From: Halobacteriales archaeon QS_4_62_28
Lineage (GTDB): Archaea; Halobacteriota; Halobacteria; Halobacteriales; Haloarculaceae
Length of the DNA stretch: 64,000 nt
Reading direction: 5' to 3'
Assembly: GCA_003021685.1 (NCBI GenBank)
Contig: PXRO01000017.1
Coordinates: 1-64,000 of the forward strand
Shown: positions 53,953 to 60,471 of the stretch, one piece after another
Position numbering within the stretch: position 1 is the stretch's first letter
Layout: every line of letters begins with the position of its first letter
Position numbers and translations under genes: made by a program
Notes under the pieces: model-generated
Told to the model about the DNA's origin: nothing
Database searches by the model: none
What the model saw: only the letters and a program-made list of their open reading frames with translations

Positions 53953-54687
53953 TTACTCGCCAGTGAGACTCGGGTGGGTCTCCTGTTCGTCGGGATGTGG
54001 CTCGGCGAGTGCATCACGCAGGACCGCCCTGCTCTCGTCCTCGCGACGGCGACTCTCGGTCCCGTCGATCTCCTCACACCCTGGTGGAACCTCGCGCCCG
54101 CGGTCGGTGAAGTAGCCCGTCGGCGCGACCCAGTCGTGATAGAACGGCGTGTCGTCGTCTTCGAGCAGCGTCACTGCGACTTCGGCCCCGTGGCCGGCAC
54201 AGACGACGGCCTGGTGGGGCTTCTCTGCGAGTCGCCCGGCCGCATAGAGGCCGTCGACGCCGGTACGGCCGTGTTCGTCGGTGTCGAGGAAGGTCTTGCC
54301 GCGGTCGAGCAGGCCGACGCCCTCGACGCCGTCGAGATAGCTCGTCTCGTTTTTCGTCGCGGCGATCACGTACTCACTCTCGTAGCGGTCGCCATCCTCG
54401 CTTTCGACGGTGAAGCCGTCGTCGGTCGCCGTGACGGTCGTGACCGTCGCAGTCTGGCGCTCGACGCCCGCCGCTTTGGCCTGGTCGCCCAGCAGGTCGA
54501 GCAACTGCCGGGCGTTGATCCCGGCAGGGAAGCCCGGAAAGTTCTCCAGGTGGGCGTTGCGCCGGAGGATCGACTCGCCGGCATCGAGGACGAGCGTTTC
54601 GAAATCCGCGCGGGCGGTGAAGACGCTGGCCGACAGGCCGGCGACGCCGCCACCGACGACCACGATGTCGTACTCTGGATCAGTCAT
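53953..54687 (-). CDS. FAD-dependent pyridine-nucleotide oxidoreductase, siderophore locus
   Basis: The 244-aa flavoprotein has the FAD-binding GGGVAGLS motif, the SILRRNAHLENFPGFPAGIN segment of thioredoxin-reductase-like proteins, and a C-terminal GVDGLYAAGRLAE motif. The redox-active CxxC of thioredoxin reductases is absent and the NADPH domain is reduced. Coupled to an upstream paralogue (8-bp overlap) and a siderophore-binding lipoprotein, it may reduce ferric siderophore or iron inside the cell. Start ATG 54687. Last gene of the minus-strand operon. Confidence 0.82.
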   Translation of the reverse strand: MTDPEYDIVVVGGGVAGLSASVFTARADFETLVLDAGESILRRNAHLENFPGFPAGINARQLLDLLGDQAKAAGVERQTATVTTVTATDDGFTVESEDGDRYESEYVIAATKNETSYLDGVEGVGLLDRGKTFLDTDEHGRTGVDGLYAAGRLAEKPHQAVVCAGHGAEVAVTLLEDDDTPFYHDWVAPTGYFTDRGREVPPGCEEIDGTESRRREDESRAVLRDALAEPHPDEQETHPSLTGE

Positions 54688-55570
54688 CGATATTCGACTC
54701 CGCGTACGCACGGATTATATCGTCGTCGAGTTGTGCCAGCAGTCGCCGCTGTCCCTCCCGGTCACGGCGTTTCCGTTCTTCCTCGTCGACACACCGGTCG
54801 AGAAACTCGACTGCGAGGTCTTGGCGGGCACATTCGAGTAGTTCGCCGTCGATGTCCTCGTCTTCGGGCACCATCTCGCGCTCGAACCACTCGTCGACGT
54901 GCTCGTTCCAGCCGTCACCGCCGTAGCGGTTCTCGTCGACCACCCAGTCGACGTAACGGTCGGCGACCGCGGGCCAGTAGCGCTCCCGGAGGTCGTCACG
55001 AATCAACGACAGGGCCGCCCGCGCGCCGTGGCCGGCGTTGATGCTCGCCTGGTGGGCCGTCTCGTCGGTCAGCCAGCCACAGGCATACAGGCCGTCGATG
55101 TCGGTTCGTCCCGCGTCGGTGACTAGGAACGGCTCACCGTCTGCGGCGTCAAGGTCCTTGAACGAGTCGAGCCAGTCGCCGTCGTAAGCCGACGCGGCCA
55201 GGACGCTCGTCGTCCGGACTGTCCGGTCGGCGGCGGTCTCGACGCGAAATCGGGCCGGCGTATCGCCGATTCGTTGGGCCGTCTCGACACGCTCATCGAC
55301 GACCGTCGCACCCTCCGCGGTGGCCTGATCCCGGCCGAGCGCGAGGAAACGCCCGGGGCTGATCCCGCCCGGGAAGCCGAGGTAGTTCTCCAGGTGGGCA
55401 CACTGCTCGATAGCCGACGCTCCCCGGGCGAGCACGATGGTCTCGAATCCGAAGCGAGCGAGGAACACCGCCGCCGAGAGGCCGCCGGTCCCACCGCCGA
55501 CGACGACCACGTCGCGGTCGACTGCGGTGTCGGGGGCGGTCGCCGGCGTCTCCGTCCGAAGCGTCGTCAT
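54680..55570 (-). CDS. FAD-dependent oxidoreductase paralogue, siderophore locus
   Basis: The 296-aa flavoprotein has GGGTGGLSAA for FAD binding, an EQCAHLENYLGFPGGIS segment parallel to its downstream paralogue, and TDIDGLYACGWLTDE. It also lacks a CxxC disulfide. A helical C-terminal extension (about 215-296, charged) is unique to this copy. Its ATG overlaps the binding-protein stop by 4 bp and its stop overlaps the next gene by 8 bp, so all three are translationally coupled. It is probably a reductase for imported iron complexes. Confidence 0.82.
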   Translation of the reverse strand: MTTLRTETPATAPDTAVDRDVVVVGGGTGGLSAAVFLARFGFETIVLARGASAIEQCAHLENYLGFPGGISPGRFLALGRDQATAEGATVVDERVETAQRIGDTPARFRVETAADRTVRTTSVLAASAYDGDWLDSFKDLDAADGEPFLVTDAGRTDIDGLYACGWLTDETAHQASINAGHGARAALSLIRDDLRERYWPAVADRYVDWVVDENRYGGDGWNEHVDEWFEREMVPEDEDIDGELLECARQDLAVEFLDRCVDEEERKRRDREGQRRLLAQLDDDIIRAYAESNIDD

Positions 55571-56793
55571 AGATTGCCGTCGATGATGTCGATAACCCGC
55601 CGGCGGTCGAACAGCCGGTTTTGGGCCGGTACCGACGGAAACTGCTCGGGATCGAACACACCGAACTCGTCGGGGTACAGTTGCTGGGCCTTCATTTCTG
55701 TCTGCAAGAGGTTCACGAGCGGTCCCTGTTCGCCGTACGCGCCGGGGTAGACGTTGCCGTTCTGGACTGCCGTCAACTGGCTCCCGACGGGGTCGTCTGC
55801 CATCGGTGTGACGTACTGCTCGCGGAACGCCGACGCCGAGAACGAGTCCGTGTCGCCGGTCGTCCCGATGCCCCAGTGGACGACCAGGATCTCGGGATCG
55901 ACTTCGAGCAGTTTCTCGTAGTCGATCTCACCGCCCTCCATCGAGTCGGGGAACGCACTGGCCACGTCGAGGTCGCGATACGGTTTCATTTCGTAGCCTT
56001 CATCCTGCGTGTTTAGCGGGTAGAAGACGCCGTTTGCGGGGTCTGACCCACCGTTGATCAGACCGACCGTCGGCCGCTCGCTCTCGGCGGGGAGTCGCGA
56101 CTGGATGTCCGTCCGAACCGACTCGTGAACCTCGACGATGGCCCCGTAGCGCTCCCGTTCCTGAAAGAGATCGGCGAGTCGCTCGAAGGCTCCATACAGC
56201 GAGTAGAGCTTGTAGTCGTGGAATTCCCGGCGTCGCCGACAGTTGTTGCCAAAGAACGGCGCGACGTTCTCGCTGATCTCCTCGGTGTCTGCCTGCTCCC
56301 AGTCGTCGTCCCACCCTGTCCCGTGCATGTAGTTGGGGTCCATCAGGATTACGTCGGGATCGAGTTCGTAGAACACTTCTTTGCTCCAGCCGCCACCGTC
56401 CCAGTTTGCCAGCGCCGGGAACGACTCCGGAGCGGGCGCGTCGAGGTCGAACGGGTCGAAAAAGAAGCTCGGGATCATGTTGCCGGCCGCGAGGAAGCCG
56501 TCGCGCTGGCCCAGCGCGAAGGCCATGTCGGCCCACGCGCCGTTGTAGACGAGCCAGGACTCGGGGACCGACTCGAAGGTGAGACAGCCCGCGGGTTCGA
56601 TACAGGCCTCGTAGCTGCTTGGAGTCGTCGTCGCCGTCTCGTCGTCCCCGGTGATCGTCTGGCCATCCATCGCAGTATCAGTCGTAGTGTTCTCGTTGCC
56701 AGACGATTCGGTGCATCCCGCGAGGAGTCCCCCTGCAATGAGCGCGCTACTGCCTGTGAGTACGTCGCGTCGCGTCTGCTGTGATCGTTCCAT
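55567..56793 (-). CDS. Iron-siderophore-type ABC substrate-binding lipoprotein (first)
   Basis: The 408-aa protein has a Tat signal RRDVLTGSSALIAGGLLAGC with lipobox Cys, then a Thr-rich spacer and a periplasmic-binding fold of the iron-complex class. It shares the segment ESVPESWLVYNGAWADMAFA with the second binding protein (DSVPETWVANNGSWADMGIA), showing common ancestry. It captures ligand outside the cell for the FecCD permease. A TTAGG-N4-CCTAA operator lies 7 bp before its ATG (56793). The ligand is inferred to be a ferric siderophore. Confidence 0.88.
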   Translation of the reverse strand: MERSQQTRRDVLTGSSALIAGGLLAGCTESSGNENTTTDTAMDGQTITGDDETATTTPSSYEACIEPAGCLTFESVPESWLVYNGAWADMAFALGQRDGFLAAGNMIPSFFFDPFDLDAPAPESFPALANWDGGGWSKEVFYELDPDVILMDPNYMHGTGWDDDWEQADTEEISENVAPFFGNNCRRRREFHDYKLYSLYGAFERLADLFQERERYGAIVEVHESVRTDIQSRLPAESERPTVGLINGGSDPANGVFYPLNTQDEGYEMKPYRDLDVASAFPDSMEGGEIDYEKLLEVDPEILVVHWGIGTTGDTDSFSASAFREQYVTPMADDPVGSQLTAVQNGNVYPGAYGEQGPLVNLLQTEMKAQQLYPDEFGVFDPEQFPSVPAQNRLFDRRRVIDIIDGNL

Positions 56794-56800
56794 GTATGAT

Positions 56801-56814
56801 TTAGGTCTACCTAA
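56801..56814. promoter_or_regulatory. Iron-box operator 1
   Basis: TTAGGTCTACCTAA is a 14-bp palindrome 7 bp upstream of the first binding-protein ATG. Its half sites match the DtxR-type consensus. Confidence 0.75.
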
Positions 56815-56836
56815 CAATTGAAAACGGTGTCGATTT

Positions 56837-56850
56837 TTAGGCCAGCCTAA
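56837..56850. promoter_or_regulatory. Iron-box operator 2
   Basis: TTAGGCCAGCCTAA lies 22 bp further upstream of operator 1 and 5 bp past the stop of the small gene at 56856. Confidence 0.75.
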
Positions 56851-56855
56851 AAGTC

Positions 56856-57173
56856 TTAGACTGGCTCGGTGTGCTGTCCTGTTCCCCCGTCCGGGTTCGC
56901 GACGCGCGGCGGGCCGTCGTGAACGACGAGTGCGTGTGCGGGCGCATTGGCGTCGAACTCCCCGAGCAGGGCACGATAGCGCGTCGCGAGTCGAGCGGCA
57001 AGGACCGCTGTCTCACGGTCAGGGAAGGCGAGGCCGTCGACCGGAACCGGGCAAACCCCGCGCTTCGCACACGCGACTCTGAACCGCCCGTCAGGGTCTG
57101 CGATACCCTCGATACAGTGTCGCAGTGGTGCAAACGAGGGAGCGCCGGCCGATTCTGATGATTCGAGGGGCAT
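56856..57173 (-). CDS. Small haloarchaeal protein in the iron locus
   Basis: The 105-aa soluble protein contains LRHCIEGIADPDGRFRVACA followed by a PVPVDG...FPDRETAVLAARLATRY segment, resembling a small haloarchaeal family (possibly DUF7552; recalled). Two Cys residues (near 36 and 41) might bind metal. It lies between the divergent promoters and the binding-protein gene. The operator at 57234-57247 is 60 bp upstream, so it is probably iron-regulated. The function is unknown. Confidence 0.72.
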   Translation of the reverse strand: MPLESSESAGAPSFAPLRHCIEGIADPDGRFRVACAKRGVCPVPVDGLAFPDRETAVLAARLATRYRALLGEFDANAPAHALVVHDGPPRVANPDGGTGQHTEPV

Positions 57174-57233
57174 CCTACGTACTGGTGACGATGTCGGCTA
57201 CCGCTGTCGTCTCCCTCCCGTTTCTCATACGAA

Positions 57234-57247
57234 TTAGGTCAGCCTAA
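57234..57247. promoter_or_regulatory. Iron-box operator 3
   Basis: TTAGGTCAGCCTAA lies in the divergent promoter region, 60 bp from the start of the leftward small gene. Confidence 0.75.
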
Positions 57248-57269
57248 ACCATTAAACCACTTACGATCT

Positions 57270-57283
57270 TTAGGCCAGCCTAG
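57270..57283. promoter_or_regulatory. Iron-box operator 4
   Basis: TTAGGCCAGCCTAG differs from the palindrome at the last base. It lies midway between operators 3 and 5 in the divergent region. Confidence 0.7.
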
Positions 57284-57318
57284 TAGCTCGAACAGAACCG
57301 AAAGTACTAACCTTGCGA

Positions 57319-57332
57319 TTAGGCATACCTAA
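57319..57332. promoter_or_regulatory. Iron-box operator 5
   Basis: TTAGGCATACCTAA ends 7 bp before the permease ATG at 57340. A BRE/TATA-like CGAAAGTACTAA (57299-57310) lies just upstream, so a bound repressor would cover the start site. Confidence 0.75.
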
Positions 57333-57339
57333 AGCAAGA

Positions 57340-58449
57340 ATGGCCGGCACACATCCGACCGACACGATGACAGAGCCAGCACACCGGAACGGCTGGTTCA
57401 CCGGTCGCCTCGCCGCCTTCTGTCTCACGAGCACGGTGATAACGGTGCTCGCGGGACTCGTGCAGGTGAGTTTCGGCTCGTACTCGATGACGATTCTCGA
57501 CGCGTGGTCGGCGGTGTTCGATCTCGATATCCTCTTCGATCCGGCCACCTGGAATGCCTTCCTGCTGGGCGGGGAGATGCCCGAGATGGACGACGCGACA
57601 CTGATCGTCTGGAACATCCGGCTTCCCCGCGTGCTGGTCGGCGTCCTTACCGGCGCGACACTCGCCGTCTCCGGGGCAATCTTCCAAGCGGTGACGCGCA
57701 ACGAACTGGCCAGTCCCTACATCCTCGGCGTCAGTTCCGGGGCCGGGCTGGCTGTGTTGCTAACCCTGGTCGTGTTCACAGGTCTCGCACCCTTCCTGCC
57801 ACTGATCGCCGCGACGGGAGGCACTGTCGCGTTCGCGCTCGTCTACGCCATCGCCTGGAAGGGCGGGACGAGTCCGGTTCGACTGGTGCTTGCCGGCGTC
57901 ATCGTCGGCACCGTCTTCCAGTCGCTCCAGACTGGCGTGTTCTTTTTCGCTGACGACCTGGGTGTGGTTCAGTCGGCCATCGCCTGGACCACGGGATCGC
58001 TGACCGGTACGGACTGGGAGCAGGTCCGGCTTGCAATCCTGCCGGCAGCGTTCGCAATCGTGCTGGCACTCGCGGGCGCTCGACAACTCAACGTCCTGTT
58101 GCTGGGCGAACGGACCGCCCAGTCGCTGGGGATGAACGTCGAACGCGTCCGTTTTGCCCTCTCTGGGGTCGCGATTCTGGCGGCCGGCACGGCTATCGCC
58201 GTTGCCGGCATCGTCGGTTTCGTCGGGCTGATCGTCCCCCACGTCGTACGCAACGTGGTCGGCAGCGACTACCGTCGGCTCGTGGTCGGCTGTCTCTTCG
58301 CCGGGCCGGCGCTGATGGTGGTTGCCGATGTCGGTGCGCGCCTCGCGCTGAGTCCGATCCAGGTCCCGGTCGGCGTCGTCACCGGGCTGATCGGCGGCCC
58401 GTACTTCCTCTATCTGATGCGCAAACAGCAATCGATGGGTGGGATCTGA
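57340..58449 (+). CDS. FecCD-family iron-complex ABC permease
   Basis: The 369-aa permease has about ten membrane helices and the FecCD signatures NIRLPRVLVGVLTGATLAVS, NELASPYILGVSSGAG and VGFVGLIVPHVVRN. The last is near the cytoplasmic coupling helix that contacts the ATPase. As a BtuC/FhuB-type subunit it probably forms a homodimer with two copies of the next gene product. ATG 57340 follows an iron box, and the frame's earlier codon at 57313 lies upstream of it. The stop overlaps the ATPase start. Confidence 0.93.
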   Translation: MAGTHPTDTMTEPAHRNGWFTGRLAAFCLTSTVITVLAGLVQVSFGSYSMTILDAWSAVFDLDILFDPATWNAFLLGGEMPEMDDATLIVWNIRLPRVLVGVLTGATLAVSGAIFQAVTRNELASPYILGVSSGAGLAVLLTLVVFTGLAPFLPLIAATGGTVAFALVYAIAWKGGTSPVRLVLAGVIVGTVFQSLQTGVFFFADDLGVVQSAIAWTTGSLTGTDWEQVRLAILPAAFAIVLALAGARQLNVLLLGERTAQSLGMNVERVRFALSGVAILAAGTAIAVAGIVGFVGLIVPHVVRNVVGSDYRRLVVGCLFAGPALMVVADVGARLALSPIQVPVGVVTGLIGGPYFLYLMRKQQSMGGI

Positions 58450-59300
58450 TGCCGGAGACGAGGCGACGCGAACCGGTGCAGGAAGTGCTGACCGACGAAG
58501 ATGGCGTCCCGGTCGCGAGCGCCCTCGTCGCCGAGGACCTCGACGTGCGATATCCCACCAGCGACGAGGCGGTCGTCGAGTGCGCTCGCCTGGACGTGCC
58601 CGAGGGTGAAGTGACAGCACTCGTCGGCCCGAACGGCAGCGGCAAATCGACGCTGCTGAAGGCGCTGTCGAACCACCTCACGCCCGAATCCGGGACCGTC
58701 CGGCTCCACGGCGAGGCGATCCAGTCGTTCGATCAGACCGAACTCGCCCGCGAGATGGGCGTGCTCTCACAGGAGAACGAATCGCCCGACTCGATCACCG
58801 TCGAGGACCTGGCCTCCCACGGCCGATATCCACACCGTGGCTTTTTCGACCGTGTCAGTTCCGAGGACCGCGAGGCCGTCGAGCGCGCTCTCGAACAGGC
58901 GGGCGTGACCCACCTGCGCGACACCGAACTCGGCCAGCTATCGGGCGGACAAAAGCAACTGGCCTGGATCGCGATGGTGCTGGCTCAGGAGACCGACGTG
59001 CTCTTACTGGACGAACCGACGACGTTCCTGGATCTCCACCACCAGTTTCGCGTCCTGGAGACGGTTCGACAGCTCAACGAGGGCAAGGACGTGACCGTCG
59101 CCGTTGTCCTCCACGATATCGCCCAGGCCGCCCGCTTCGCCGACAACCTGGTTGCAATGAACGACGGACAACTCTACGACTGGGGACCGCCACGAAAGGT
59201 CGTCACCGAGCAACTGCTGGCTGATGTCTTCGGCGTCGAGGCCACCGTCGAGTACGAACCCGAGTTACAGATTCTGCCGCGGCGTGCGCTCGGCGAATGA
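58449..59300 (+). CDS. Iron-complex ABC transporter ATPase
   Basis: The 283-aa ATP-binding subunit has Walker A GPNGSGKST (60-68), signature LSGGQKQ (about 163-169), Walker B LLLDEPTTFLD and the switch His in VVLHD. It belongs to the FepC/BtuD class that powers siderophore and cobalamin uptake. An N-terminal extension of about 25 residues precedes the core. Its ATG overlaps the permease stop (TGATG). The second binding-protein gene follows 58 bp later with its own operator. Confidence 0.93.
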   Translation: MPETRRREPVQEVLTDEDGVPVASALVAEDLDVRYPTSDEAVVECARLDVPEGEVTALVGPNGSGKSTLLKALSNHLTPESGTVRLHGEAIQSFDQTELAREMGVLSQENESPDSITVEDLASHGRYPHRGFFDRVSSEDREAVERALEQAGVTHLRDTELGQLSGGQKQLAWIAMVLAQETDVLLLDEPTTFLDLHHQFRVLETVRQLNEGKDVTVAVVLHDIAQAARFADNLVAMNDGQLYDWGPPRKVVTEQLLADVFGVEATVEYEPELQILPRRALGE

Positions 59301-59339
59301 GCGCGCGAGACGGCCGATTTCGGAACACTTTTGTGTGTT

Positions 59340-59353
59340 TTAGGATGACCTAA
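59340..59353. promoter_or_regulatory. Iron-box operator 6
   Basis: TTAGGATGACCTAA lies 5 bp before the ATG of the second binding protein, showing that this gene has its own regulated promoter. Confidence 0.75.
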
Positions 59354-59358
59354 AAACG

Positions 59359-60471
59359 ATGACCGACGATTCGAGCCGAACGCGTCGAAACGTACTGAAA
59401 GCCGGCGGTACAGTCGGGACCATCGCGCTCGCGGGCTGTGTCGGAACGAGTAGTGAGGAGGAATCGACCGCAACCGAGACGAGTTACTCGGCATCGATCG
59501 AACCGATGGGAACTGTCGAGTTCGACAGCGTGCCCGAGACGTGGGTCGCCAACAACGGGAGCTGGGCCGACATGGGTATCGCACTCGGACGGGAGCCACC
59601 GGCGGGCGTCTGGCTTCCCTCGCGCTATCACACCCAGTACTACGACGAGATCCCGGACGTAAGCGTCGACAAGAGCGGGATGACCGCCCTTTATCAGGAC
59701 GGCGTCAGCAAGGAGCGGTTCTACGCGCTCGACGGTGATGTCCACGTCATGGATCCGAATTTCCTGCAGCATCGCTTCAACGGGTGGGAACAGAGCGACG
59801 TGGACGAGGTGCGCGAGAACGTCGCGCCCTTCTTCGGCAACAGCATTTTCTCGACGGGGTACTCCTGGCACGAGGATTACCAGTACTACTCGCTGTACGA
59901 GGCCTTCGAGAAACTCGCCGCCCTCTTTCAGGAACGGGAGCGCTACGAGGCCTTCGCCACGCTCCACGACGACTTCCAGTCGACCCTCGACGACGTGGTT
60001 CCGGGCGAGGGCGAGCGCCCGGCAGTCGCGATCATGTGGGCCGCCGGCGACCAGCCCGAGGAGTTCTCGCCGTACCTGATCAGCGAGGGAACGAGCTTCA
60101 AACAGTGGCGTGATCTGGGTGTCCGTGACGCACTCGCCGAGACGGACGTGCAGGACTTCCACGAGACGCGTGGCCGGATCGACTACGAGACGCTCTTGGA
60201 GATCGATCCCGAGAACATCATGTTCCGTGGTCAGGAAGCAAAGACTGCCCGGAAGTTCCAGGACACTGTCGTCGCGTTCATGGAGGACCACGACGTGGCC
60301 AGTCAGCTAACGGCCGTCGAGAACGGCGACGTGTACCGCGGCGGCCCGCTGTACCAGGGACCGATCACGAACCTCGTCGTCACCGAACGCGCTGTCCAGC
60401 AGGTGTATGACACCGACGAGACACTGTTCGACCGCCAGCGCGTCGCCGACATCGTCACCGGCGAGTTCTGA
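59359..60471 (+). CDS. Iron-siderophore-type ABC substrate-binding lipoprotein (second)
   Basis: The 370-aa protein is paralogous to the product of 55567-56793. Its Tat signal RTRRNVLKAGGTVGTIALAGC carries the lipobox Cys, followed by a short acidic spacer and the binding fold. Shared landmarks include VAPFFGN, SLYEAFEKLAALFQERERYEA and the C-terminal DRQRVADI. The ligand pocket may differ, so the two proteins could widen the range of siderophores fed to one permease. ATG 59359. A long hairpin follows the stop. Confidence 0.88.
   Translation: MTDDSSRTRRNVLKAGGTVGTIALAGCVGTSSEEESTATETSYSASIEPMGTVEFDSVPETWVANNGSWADMGIALGREPPAGVWLPSRYHTQYYDEIPDVSVDKSGMTALYQDGVSKERFYALDGDVHVMDPNFLQHRFNGWEQSDVDEVRENVAPFFGNSIFSTGYSWHEDYQYYSLYEAFEKLAALFQERERYEAFATLHDDFQSTLDDVVPGEGERPAVAIMWAAGDQPEEFSPYLISEGTSFKQWRDLGVRDALAETDVQDFHETRGRIDYETLLEIDPENIMFRGQEAKTARKFQDTVVAFMEDHDVASQLTAVENGDVYRGGPLYQGPITNLVVTERAVQQVYDTDETLFDRQRVADIVTGEF

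Follow-up and report, generated by a model that had tools for sequence, protein, structure and literature searches.

What controls the genes of a probable siderophore uptake system in Halobacteriales archaeon QS_4_62_28, a member of the Haloarculaceae? The question is raised by six copies of a palindrome, TTAGG-N4-CCTAA, found towards the end of the stretch analysed here (64,000 nucleotides, positions 1 to 64,000 of contig PXRO01000017.1, assembly GCA_003021685.1; hereafter the window), near the genes for two siderophore-type binding lipoproteins (SBP1 and SBP2), a permease with its ATPase and a DUF7552 protein. A first-pass annotation had taken these copies to define an iron regulon. They are very probably operators of a DtxR-family metal repressor, most likely an iron-responsive one, of which one dimer would sit between the TATA box and the start codon. 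A motif scan recovered exactly the six annotated sites, at 56801, 56837, 57234, 57270, 57319 and 59340, with one end mismatch at 57270, as annotated, and perfect matches at the other five. Six sites were reached in none of 100 dinucleotide shuffles of the window scanned with up to one mismatch (mean 0.25 sites, maximum 5). Using the reversed pattern of the motif as the control throughout, ten perfect sites and no control sites were found in the genome (2.64 Mb, 57 contigs, 89.68 % complete), where about one perfect site is expected from independent bases at the GC content of the window. Furthermore, 39 of 101 perfect sites in seven genomes belong to iron or siderophore families; the motif is thus not common genome-wide without a link to metal genes, and the annotated iron regulon is supported. 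The sites of the window and the promoter elements between one pair of them are the following.

56801..56814, minus strand: putative proximal operator of the SBP1 unit, 7 bp before the ATG (sequence, motif scan and promoter alignment)
56815..56836, minus strand: TFB recognition element (BRE) and TATA-like stretch, 22 bp, between both SBP1 operators (sequence; consensus of 37 gaps)
56837..56850, minus strand: putative distal operator of SBP1, at a spacing of 36 bp to the proximal site (motif and pair scans)
57234..57247, minus strand: putative proximal operator of the DUF7552 unit (sequence, motif scan)
57270..57283, minus strand: putative distal operator with one mismatch, 36 bp from 57234 (motif scan)
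57319..57332, plus strand: putative operator of the permease-ATPase unit, 7 bp before the ATG, a 7-bp gap also seen in two relatives
59340..59353, plus strand: putative operator of SBP2, 5 bp before the ATG (sequence, motif scan)

Promoter layout and conservation

The distances of 7, 7 and 5 bp that had been given between three sites and a start codon are correct for the sites at 56801 (ATG at 56793, minus strand), 57319 (ATG at 57340) and 59340 (ATG at 59359). The operator placement built on these distances stands, and is refined here to a proximal site between the TATA box and the start codon. Site 57234 likewise lies 5 bp from a minus-strand ATG at 57228; the frame opened there comprises only 17 codons, and 60 bp separate the site from the start of the DUF7552 gene proper. 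Across 74 distinct upstream regions, a few of which share a doubt of frame assignment, the A+T content of the ten positions preceding the proximal site (-10 to -1) is 64-92 %, with an A-rich stretch ahead of them. An AT-rich block of this kind is as expected for a TATA box with its BRE, and the operator would border the TATA box on its downstream side.

The same elements can be recognised between paired sites. The pairs 56801/56837 and 57234/57270 have an identical spacing of 36 bp, and 37 gaps of 22 bp between such sites, one of which (L054) is the reverse reading of another, carry CGAAA at -18 to -14 and a TTTTA-like sequence at -10 to -6. Within the class Halobacteria, perfect-site pairs at 15-45 bp occur in 98 of 145 sampled genomes, with none in the reversed control of any of them. 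Among the 75 pairs listed (39 genomes), some of which are common to close relatives, the spacing is exactly 36 bp in 43 and 33-37 bp in 63. The outer flanking base is T in 160/202 half-sites, which extends the palindrome to a 16-bp form, and at many promoters the proximal site stands alone. Helical phasing was considered for the spacing, as 36, 26 and 15 bp are near half-integral turns and would set the dimers on opposite sides of the helix, like those on the 19-bp DtxR/IdeR box, and was rejected since 20, 21 and 29 bp also occur. A fixed length of BRE plus TATA box explains the 36 bp more simply.

Both the proximal position and the second site recur in relatives of the locus. The 55 loci with SBP2 relatives scanned in named genomes (672 kb) hold 132 perfect and 38 one-mismatch sites, against seven matches to the reversed pattern at up to one mismatch. 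A site with at most one mismatch within 12 bp of the ATG precedes the SBP2 relative in 47 of these loci, at 4-9 bp and perfect in 43, while a second site 34-37 bp upstream is found in 32; the eight loci without an ATG-proximal site by this test include some partial matches. All 57 sampled genomes of the family contain sites (2-28 each; control 0-8), and the 18 class genomes of a phylum-wide sample hold 219 against 22 for the control. Outside the class, a DtxR-type match is found no more than 2.5 kb from nine of the 52 sites listed (18 genomes), where a uniform expectation is 0.26, in a comparison made post hoc among the sites and matches listed. At these nine loci (L175-L183, seven genomes) the site stands 3-6 bp before feoB in five, 5 bp before feoA in two and, in G180, 17 bp before a gene for a three-domain DtxR protein (242 aa) with feoB adjoining; in the ninth (L178) it is inside an open frame. 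TATA-like stretches precede the feo and dtxR sites too. Eight of the nine outside loci have their site in front of feoB, feoA or dtxR, which ties the motif to iron and DtxR independently of the window; an earlier view from total counts, that the signal is confined to the class, was dropped for this reason. The same short gap to the ATG outside the class indicates that the placement of a site next to the ATG predates the siderophore regulon of haloarchaea.

Genes behind the sites

The genes around the window sites, with the doubtful frame behind site 57234, are as follows.

53953..54687, minus strand: second FAD/NAD-binding oxidoreductase-like protein of the SBP1 unit
54680..55570, minus strand: FAD/NAD-binding oxidoreductase-like protein, whose ATG overlaps the SBP1 stop
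55567..56793, minus strand: SBP1, siderophore-type binding lipoprotein (PF01497), 408 aa
56856..57173, minus strand: DUF7552 protein, 105 aa, whose BLAST relatives follow a site in three further genomes
57175..57228, minus strand: 17-codon open frame 5 bp past operator 57234, doubtful as a gene
57340..58449, plus strand: FecCD-family permease (PF01032), 369 aa
58449..59300, plus strand: ABC ATPase (PF00005), 283 aa
59359..60471, plus strand: SBP2, second siderophore-type binding lipoprotein (PF01497), 370 aa

Judged by their families, these genes would encode an ABC uptake system of the siderophore type that has two binding proteins. The SBP1 and DUF7552 units each have one 36-bp site pair, while the permease unit and SBP2 each have one ATG-proximal site. 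The two successive FAD/NAD-binding oxidoreductase-like proteins (53953-55570) which follow SBP1 may be ferric-siderophore reductases, although this is a guess.

Five of the ten perfect sites of the genome are in the window, four stand before genes elsewhere and one is an orphan, with the five non-window sites at two loci, on contigs C6 and C37. On C6 a perfect site is found 8 bp before a PF13343 binding-protein lipoprotein, 16 bp before an RGP-family gene (PF03214; L005:6706-7863) and 9 bp before a gene for a 52-aa protein, which is near a ferritin-like gene. On C37 a perfect site lies 5 bp before a DUF5059-cupredoxin lipoprotein; the orphan is 254 bp upstream of this site and lacks a convincing gene. 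Of the eight one-mismatch sites of the genome, three have a perfect site 26-36 bp away. As a side observation, C37:94254-94300 (L006:6255-6301), about 250 bp before the DUF5059 promoter, forms a site pair of spacing 33 with one site mismatched and a TATA-like stretch between; no convincing open frame was found behind this pair, which may serve a non-coding transcript, be left from a decayed gene or form an additional promoter.

A broader view of the regulon was obtained from the 101 perfect sites of seven genomes (this genome, three of the same genus and three further family genomes with full site lists), to which genes were assigned by a best-gene scoring rule and BLAST clustering. Five sites remained without a gene, seven of the 26 gene clusters were not family-scanned, and some assigned frames are doubtful, such as L112, which was taken on the wrong strand, and cluster 8, a short frame overlapping the DUF5059 frame. 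An ATG opening a frame of at least 50 aa is found within 12 bp of 63/101 sites, against 201/2020 random positions, and the commonest gap between site and ATG is 5 bp. The 39 sites with siderophore or iron families comprise 30 before PF01497-related lipoproteins (five of these being distal sites) and three each before FecCD permeases, IucA/IucC synthetases and FeoA. The remaining sites mostly front genes of unknown or unclear role. Sites are found in 7/7 genomes for both the PF13343 binding protein and the RGP-family gene, and in 6/7 for a GMC oxidoreductase. The latter is also present in QS_4_62_28 (C50, L173; 83 % identical), where a search of the 150 bp ahead of its conserved start region revealed no site. 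Further genes behind sites encode DUF7552 proteins, a class-III aminotransferase, proteins of 50-55 aa, a short DtxR-like protein and several proteins without a family. The 50-55-aa proteins (L005:13955-14110, L082, L083, L086, L096, L106, L112 and L115) share a C-terminal stretch with a WIA motif and most of their genes follow a perfect site at 8-9 bp; a match of one of them to DUF7331 is below the cut-off.

Two of these genes were followed by tblastn-anchored loci in 39 class genomes. The RGP-family gene has 33 matches in 31 of them, and among the 30 loci obtained a perfect site lies 12-20 bp before the start in 28 (L136-L163) and within 150 bp after the stop in 26; the two loci without a site are L134 (29 % identical, another subfamily) and L135 (60 % identical). 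The DUF5059 gene occurs in nine of the genomes, and in all nine its start is preceded by a perfect site at 3-8 bp. Its product (L006:6561-8969) is predicted to combine a long all-helical repeat domain with a plastocyanin-like domain (mean pLDDT 81.7, pTM 0.51). The best 50 of 64 Foldseek matches (E ≤ 0.001) are all plastocyanins, pseudoazurins or amicyanins which hit the cupredoxin domain only, and the best 60 of 67 matches of a sequence search are the same blue-copper proteins. A role as an EfeO-like iron protein was discarded, as neither search supported a relation of the helical part to imelysin or EfeO.

Regulator and competing explanations

In agreement with the first-pass annotation, which saw no regulator gene in the window, none of the seven PF01325 matches in the genome is on the window contig (C17). 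Two of the seven are clear. The 228-aa protein L007 (C35) contains Fe_dep_repress, Fe_dep_repr_C and FeoA domains (helix-turn-helix, dimerisation and FeoA), while L008 (C37; L008:1249-1683; 145 aa) has the first two only. Most ligand positions are kept in an alignment of L007 with IdeR (1fx7). L007 is probably the regulator of these sites and, to judge from the two sequences, the better candidate. It has matches in 18/18 class genomes of the phylum sample (E ≤ 3.2e-61; best outside match 2.9e-29), although a choice of regulator by co-occurrence was abandoned, being undone by shorter matches that are about as widespread, and no search used L008 as the query. Side observations on the short homologues include the cysteine-containing tail of L008, beside which a neighbouring frame (L008:1709-2200) appears by eye to be ferritin- or rubrerythrin-like, and a 135-aa DtxR-like gene of genome G023 (L112:2379-2783), where a perfect site 46 bp before the ATG is a hint of autoregulation.

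Several observations count against an iron-responsive operator at these sites, or against parts of the proposal. The Haloferax IucC protein, a siderophore gene product, fell 10-fold in iron starvation (PMC11349517). The best NCBIfam models of the PF13343 protein, below cut-off, are for aminoethylphosphonate and thiamine, so that an iron substrate is not indicated. In the seven genomes, 29/101 sites have no ATG frame of at least 50 aa within 20 bp. With up to one mismatch, 18 sites stand against 44 control sites in QS_4_62_28, and a lone one-mismatch site thus counts as no evidence. The class genome G069 has four sites against nine for the control, and 82 genomes outside the class hold 135 against 221. 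Two window sites do not fit a paired layout, as the closest other site to 57319 is 49 bp away and 59340 has no neighbour. With regard to the regulator, L007 has Asp at both the Met10 and Cys102 positions of IdeR, where the iron-favouring ligands are therefore lacking, and shorter second DtxR-type matches, in at least 17 of 18 class genomes, are about as widespread as those of L007.

These points bear on four other explanations. Sulfur ligands at the Met10 and Cys102 positions raise iron selectivity, whereas MntR has Asp or Asn and Glu (PMC10317159), so the two Asp residues of L007, which resemble those of manganese regulators at least in kind, mean that the signal could be manganese or both metals. 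A repressor sensing manganese, or manganese plus iron, would turn the regulon into a general divalent-metal response. The best NCBIfam model for L007 is also a manganese regulator, far below its cut-off (221 vs 350 bits). Such a response is nevertheless distinctly unlikely, considering the siderophore synthetases, siderophore-type binding proteins and FeoA behind the sites, the lack of a manganese importer among the 19/26 gene clusters scanned and the identical site before feoB and feoA outside the class. Control by L008 or another protein in place of L007 is somewhat less improbable. Besides the spread of the short homologues, it is favoured by the perfect site before the DtxR-like gene of G023. 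Against it, several metal-ligand residues are missing from L008 in a reading of the alignments, and the site in G180 fronts a DtxR gene of the L007 kind; neither L007 nor L008 is preceded in this genome by a site with up to one mismatch.

The distal sites might also be spares inherited with duplicated promoters, the 36-bp spacing having no function of its own. Many pairs do front related binding-protein genes, some of those listed are common to close relatives (for example G153 and G126), and 47 of the 145 class genomes lack a perfect pair at 15-45 bp. This explanation is considered doubtful, as the 43 pairs at exactly 36 bp come from 25 genomes though their 22-bp gap sequences differ, and as a pair recurs before DUF5059 in 6/9 loci at 34-36 bp, with five of those distal sites carrying one mismatch. 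That the sites are chance palindromes or repeats without regulatory meaning would accord with the shortness of the motif and with the outside-class totals, which do not exceed the control, but is scarcely credible given the shuffled windows, the genome-wide count of perfect sites and the conserved positions. An iron-responsive DtxR-family repressor at these sites is thus the preferred explanation.

Proposed mechanism and known systems

A mechanism of metal-dependent binding and polymerase block can be proposed which is consistent with the observed sites, their positions, spacing and conservation, the gene content and the DtxR homologues. When iron is plentiful, one metal-loaded dimer would bind each 14-bp site (16 bp with the flanking T and A). 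The proximal dimer would fill the space between the TATA box and the start codon of mostly leaderless transcripts and exclude RNA polymerase, and a further dimer, bound 36 bp upstream at many promoters, would close the other side of BRE and TATA box. When iron is scarce, the dimers would leave, and SBP1, FecCD, the ATPase, SBP2, DUF7552 and other members would be transcribed. Since Haloferax transcripts are typically leaderless (PMC6490895), a bound proximal dimer would cover the stretch through which the polymerase enters. Exclusion of RNA polymerase is the reported mode of action of LrpA and of MDR1 of Archaeoglobus (PMC2995911), a single site of this type is bound by one dimer of Saccharopolyspora IdeR (PMC8464063), and iron starvation raises 5/11 Haloferax fhuD paralogues more than 4-fold (PMC11349517). 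A further proposal, for and against which the chances appear evenly balanced, is a two-clamp DtxR control in which single-dimer sites 36 bp apart shut the core promoter from both sides, cooperating through their spacing and not through an overlapping 19-bp box; the same code would place the RGP-family gene, the helical-repeat cupredoxin lipoprotein (DUF5059) and the proteins of about 50 aa in the core iron response of the class.

The operators of DtxR and IdeR in Actinobacteria are 19-bp boxes, while a 14-bp form, TTAGGNNNNCCTAA, has been proposed from Saccharopolyspora IdeR (PMC8464063). The likeness of the half-sites to those of DtxR, pointed out in the first-pass annotation, extends to the whole dyad, as the sites here have the TTAGG-N4-CCTAA dyad of the 14-bp form. 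They share with actinobacterial operators the TTAGG/CCTAA half-sites, the 4-bp spacer, siderophore and iron-uptake targets and a DtxR homologue in the genome. They differ from the 19-bp box, in which four CCTAA repeats accommodate two overlapping dimers, as 0/6 window sites carry the overlapping half for a second dimer, and haloarchaeal sites are single or paired, mostly 36 bp apart, around an archaeal BRE-TATA promoter. Among archaeal systems, MDR1 of Archaeoglobus fulgidus may be an analogue, being a metal-dependent regulator that blocks RNA polymerase (PMC2995911), and here the proximal site would border the TATA box on the downstream side. The second site upstream of the BRE, unlike MDR1, would flank the TFB/TBP region as well, although the description of MDR1 drawn on here does not include its operator layout.

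DtxR-family control of iron genes in haloarchaea is already known (PMC11349517). It includes Idr1/Idr2, SirR and TroR of Halobacterium and Haloferax, DtxR-family proteins of iron and manganese homeostasis (PMC11349517, PMC5605881), to which L007 and L008 are likened by family alone. It also includes a 'ferR regulon signal', which precedes every fhu-type siderophore uptake gene in Haloferax volcanii (PMC11349517). The gene types of this haloarchaeal signal (Leyn and Rodionov 2015) agree with those found here, and although the comparison is by gene types alone, the signal may well be the same motif. Apparently new here are the 36-bp bracket around BRE and TATA box and the place of the RGP-family gene in the regulon. 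Neither was found in the literature searched, in which the best 10 of 512 records of one RGP query lacked the phrase; their absence from print is not thereby established, and the source of the ferR signal may describe parts of this.

A review from 2023 left open the role of IdeR-type half sites binding one dimer, and their occurrence in other species (PMC10317159). Throughout the haloarchaea sampled, the site takes the single 14-bp form and has a fixed place in the promoter, and the question of single-dimer control thus becomes testable in genetically tractable archaea. Furthermore, the sites bring the RGP-family, DUF5059, DUF7552 and small proteins into iron physiology.

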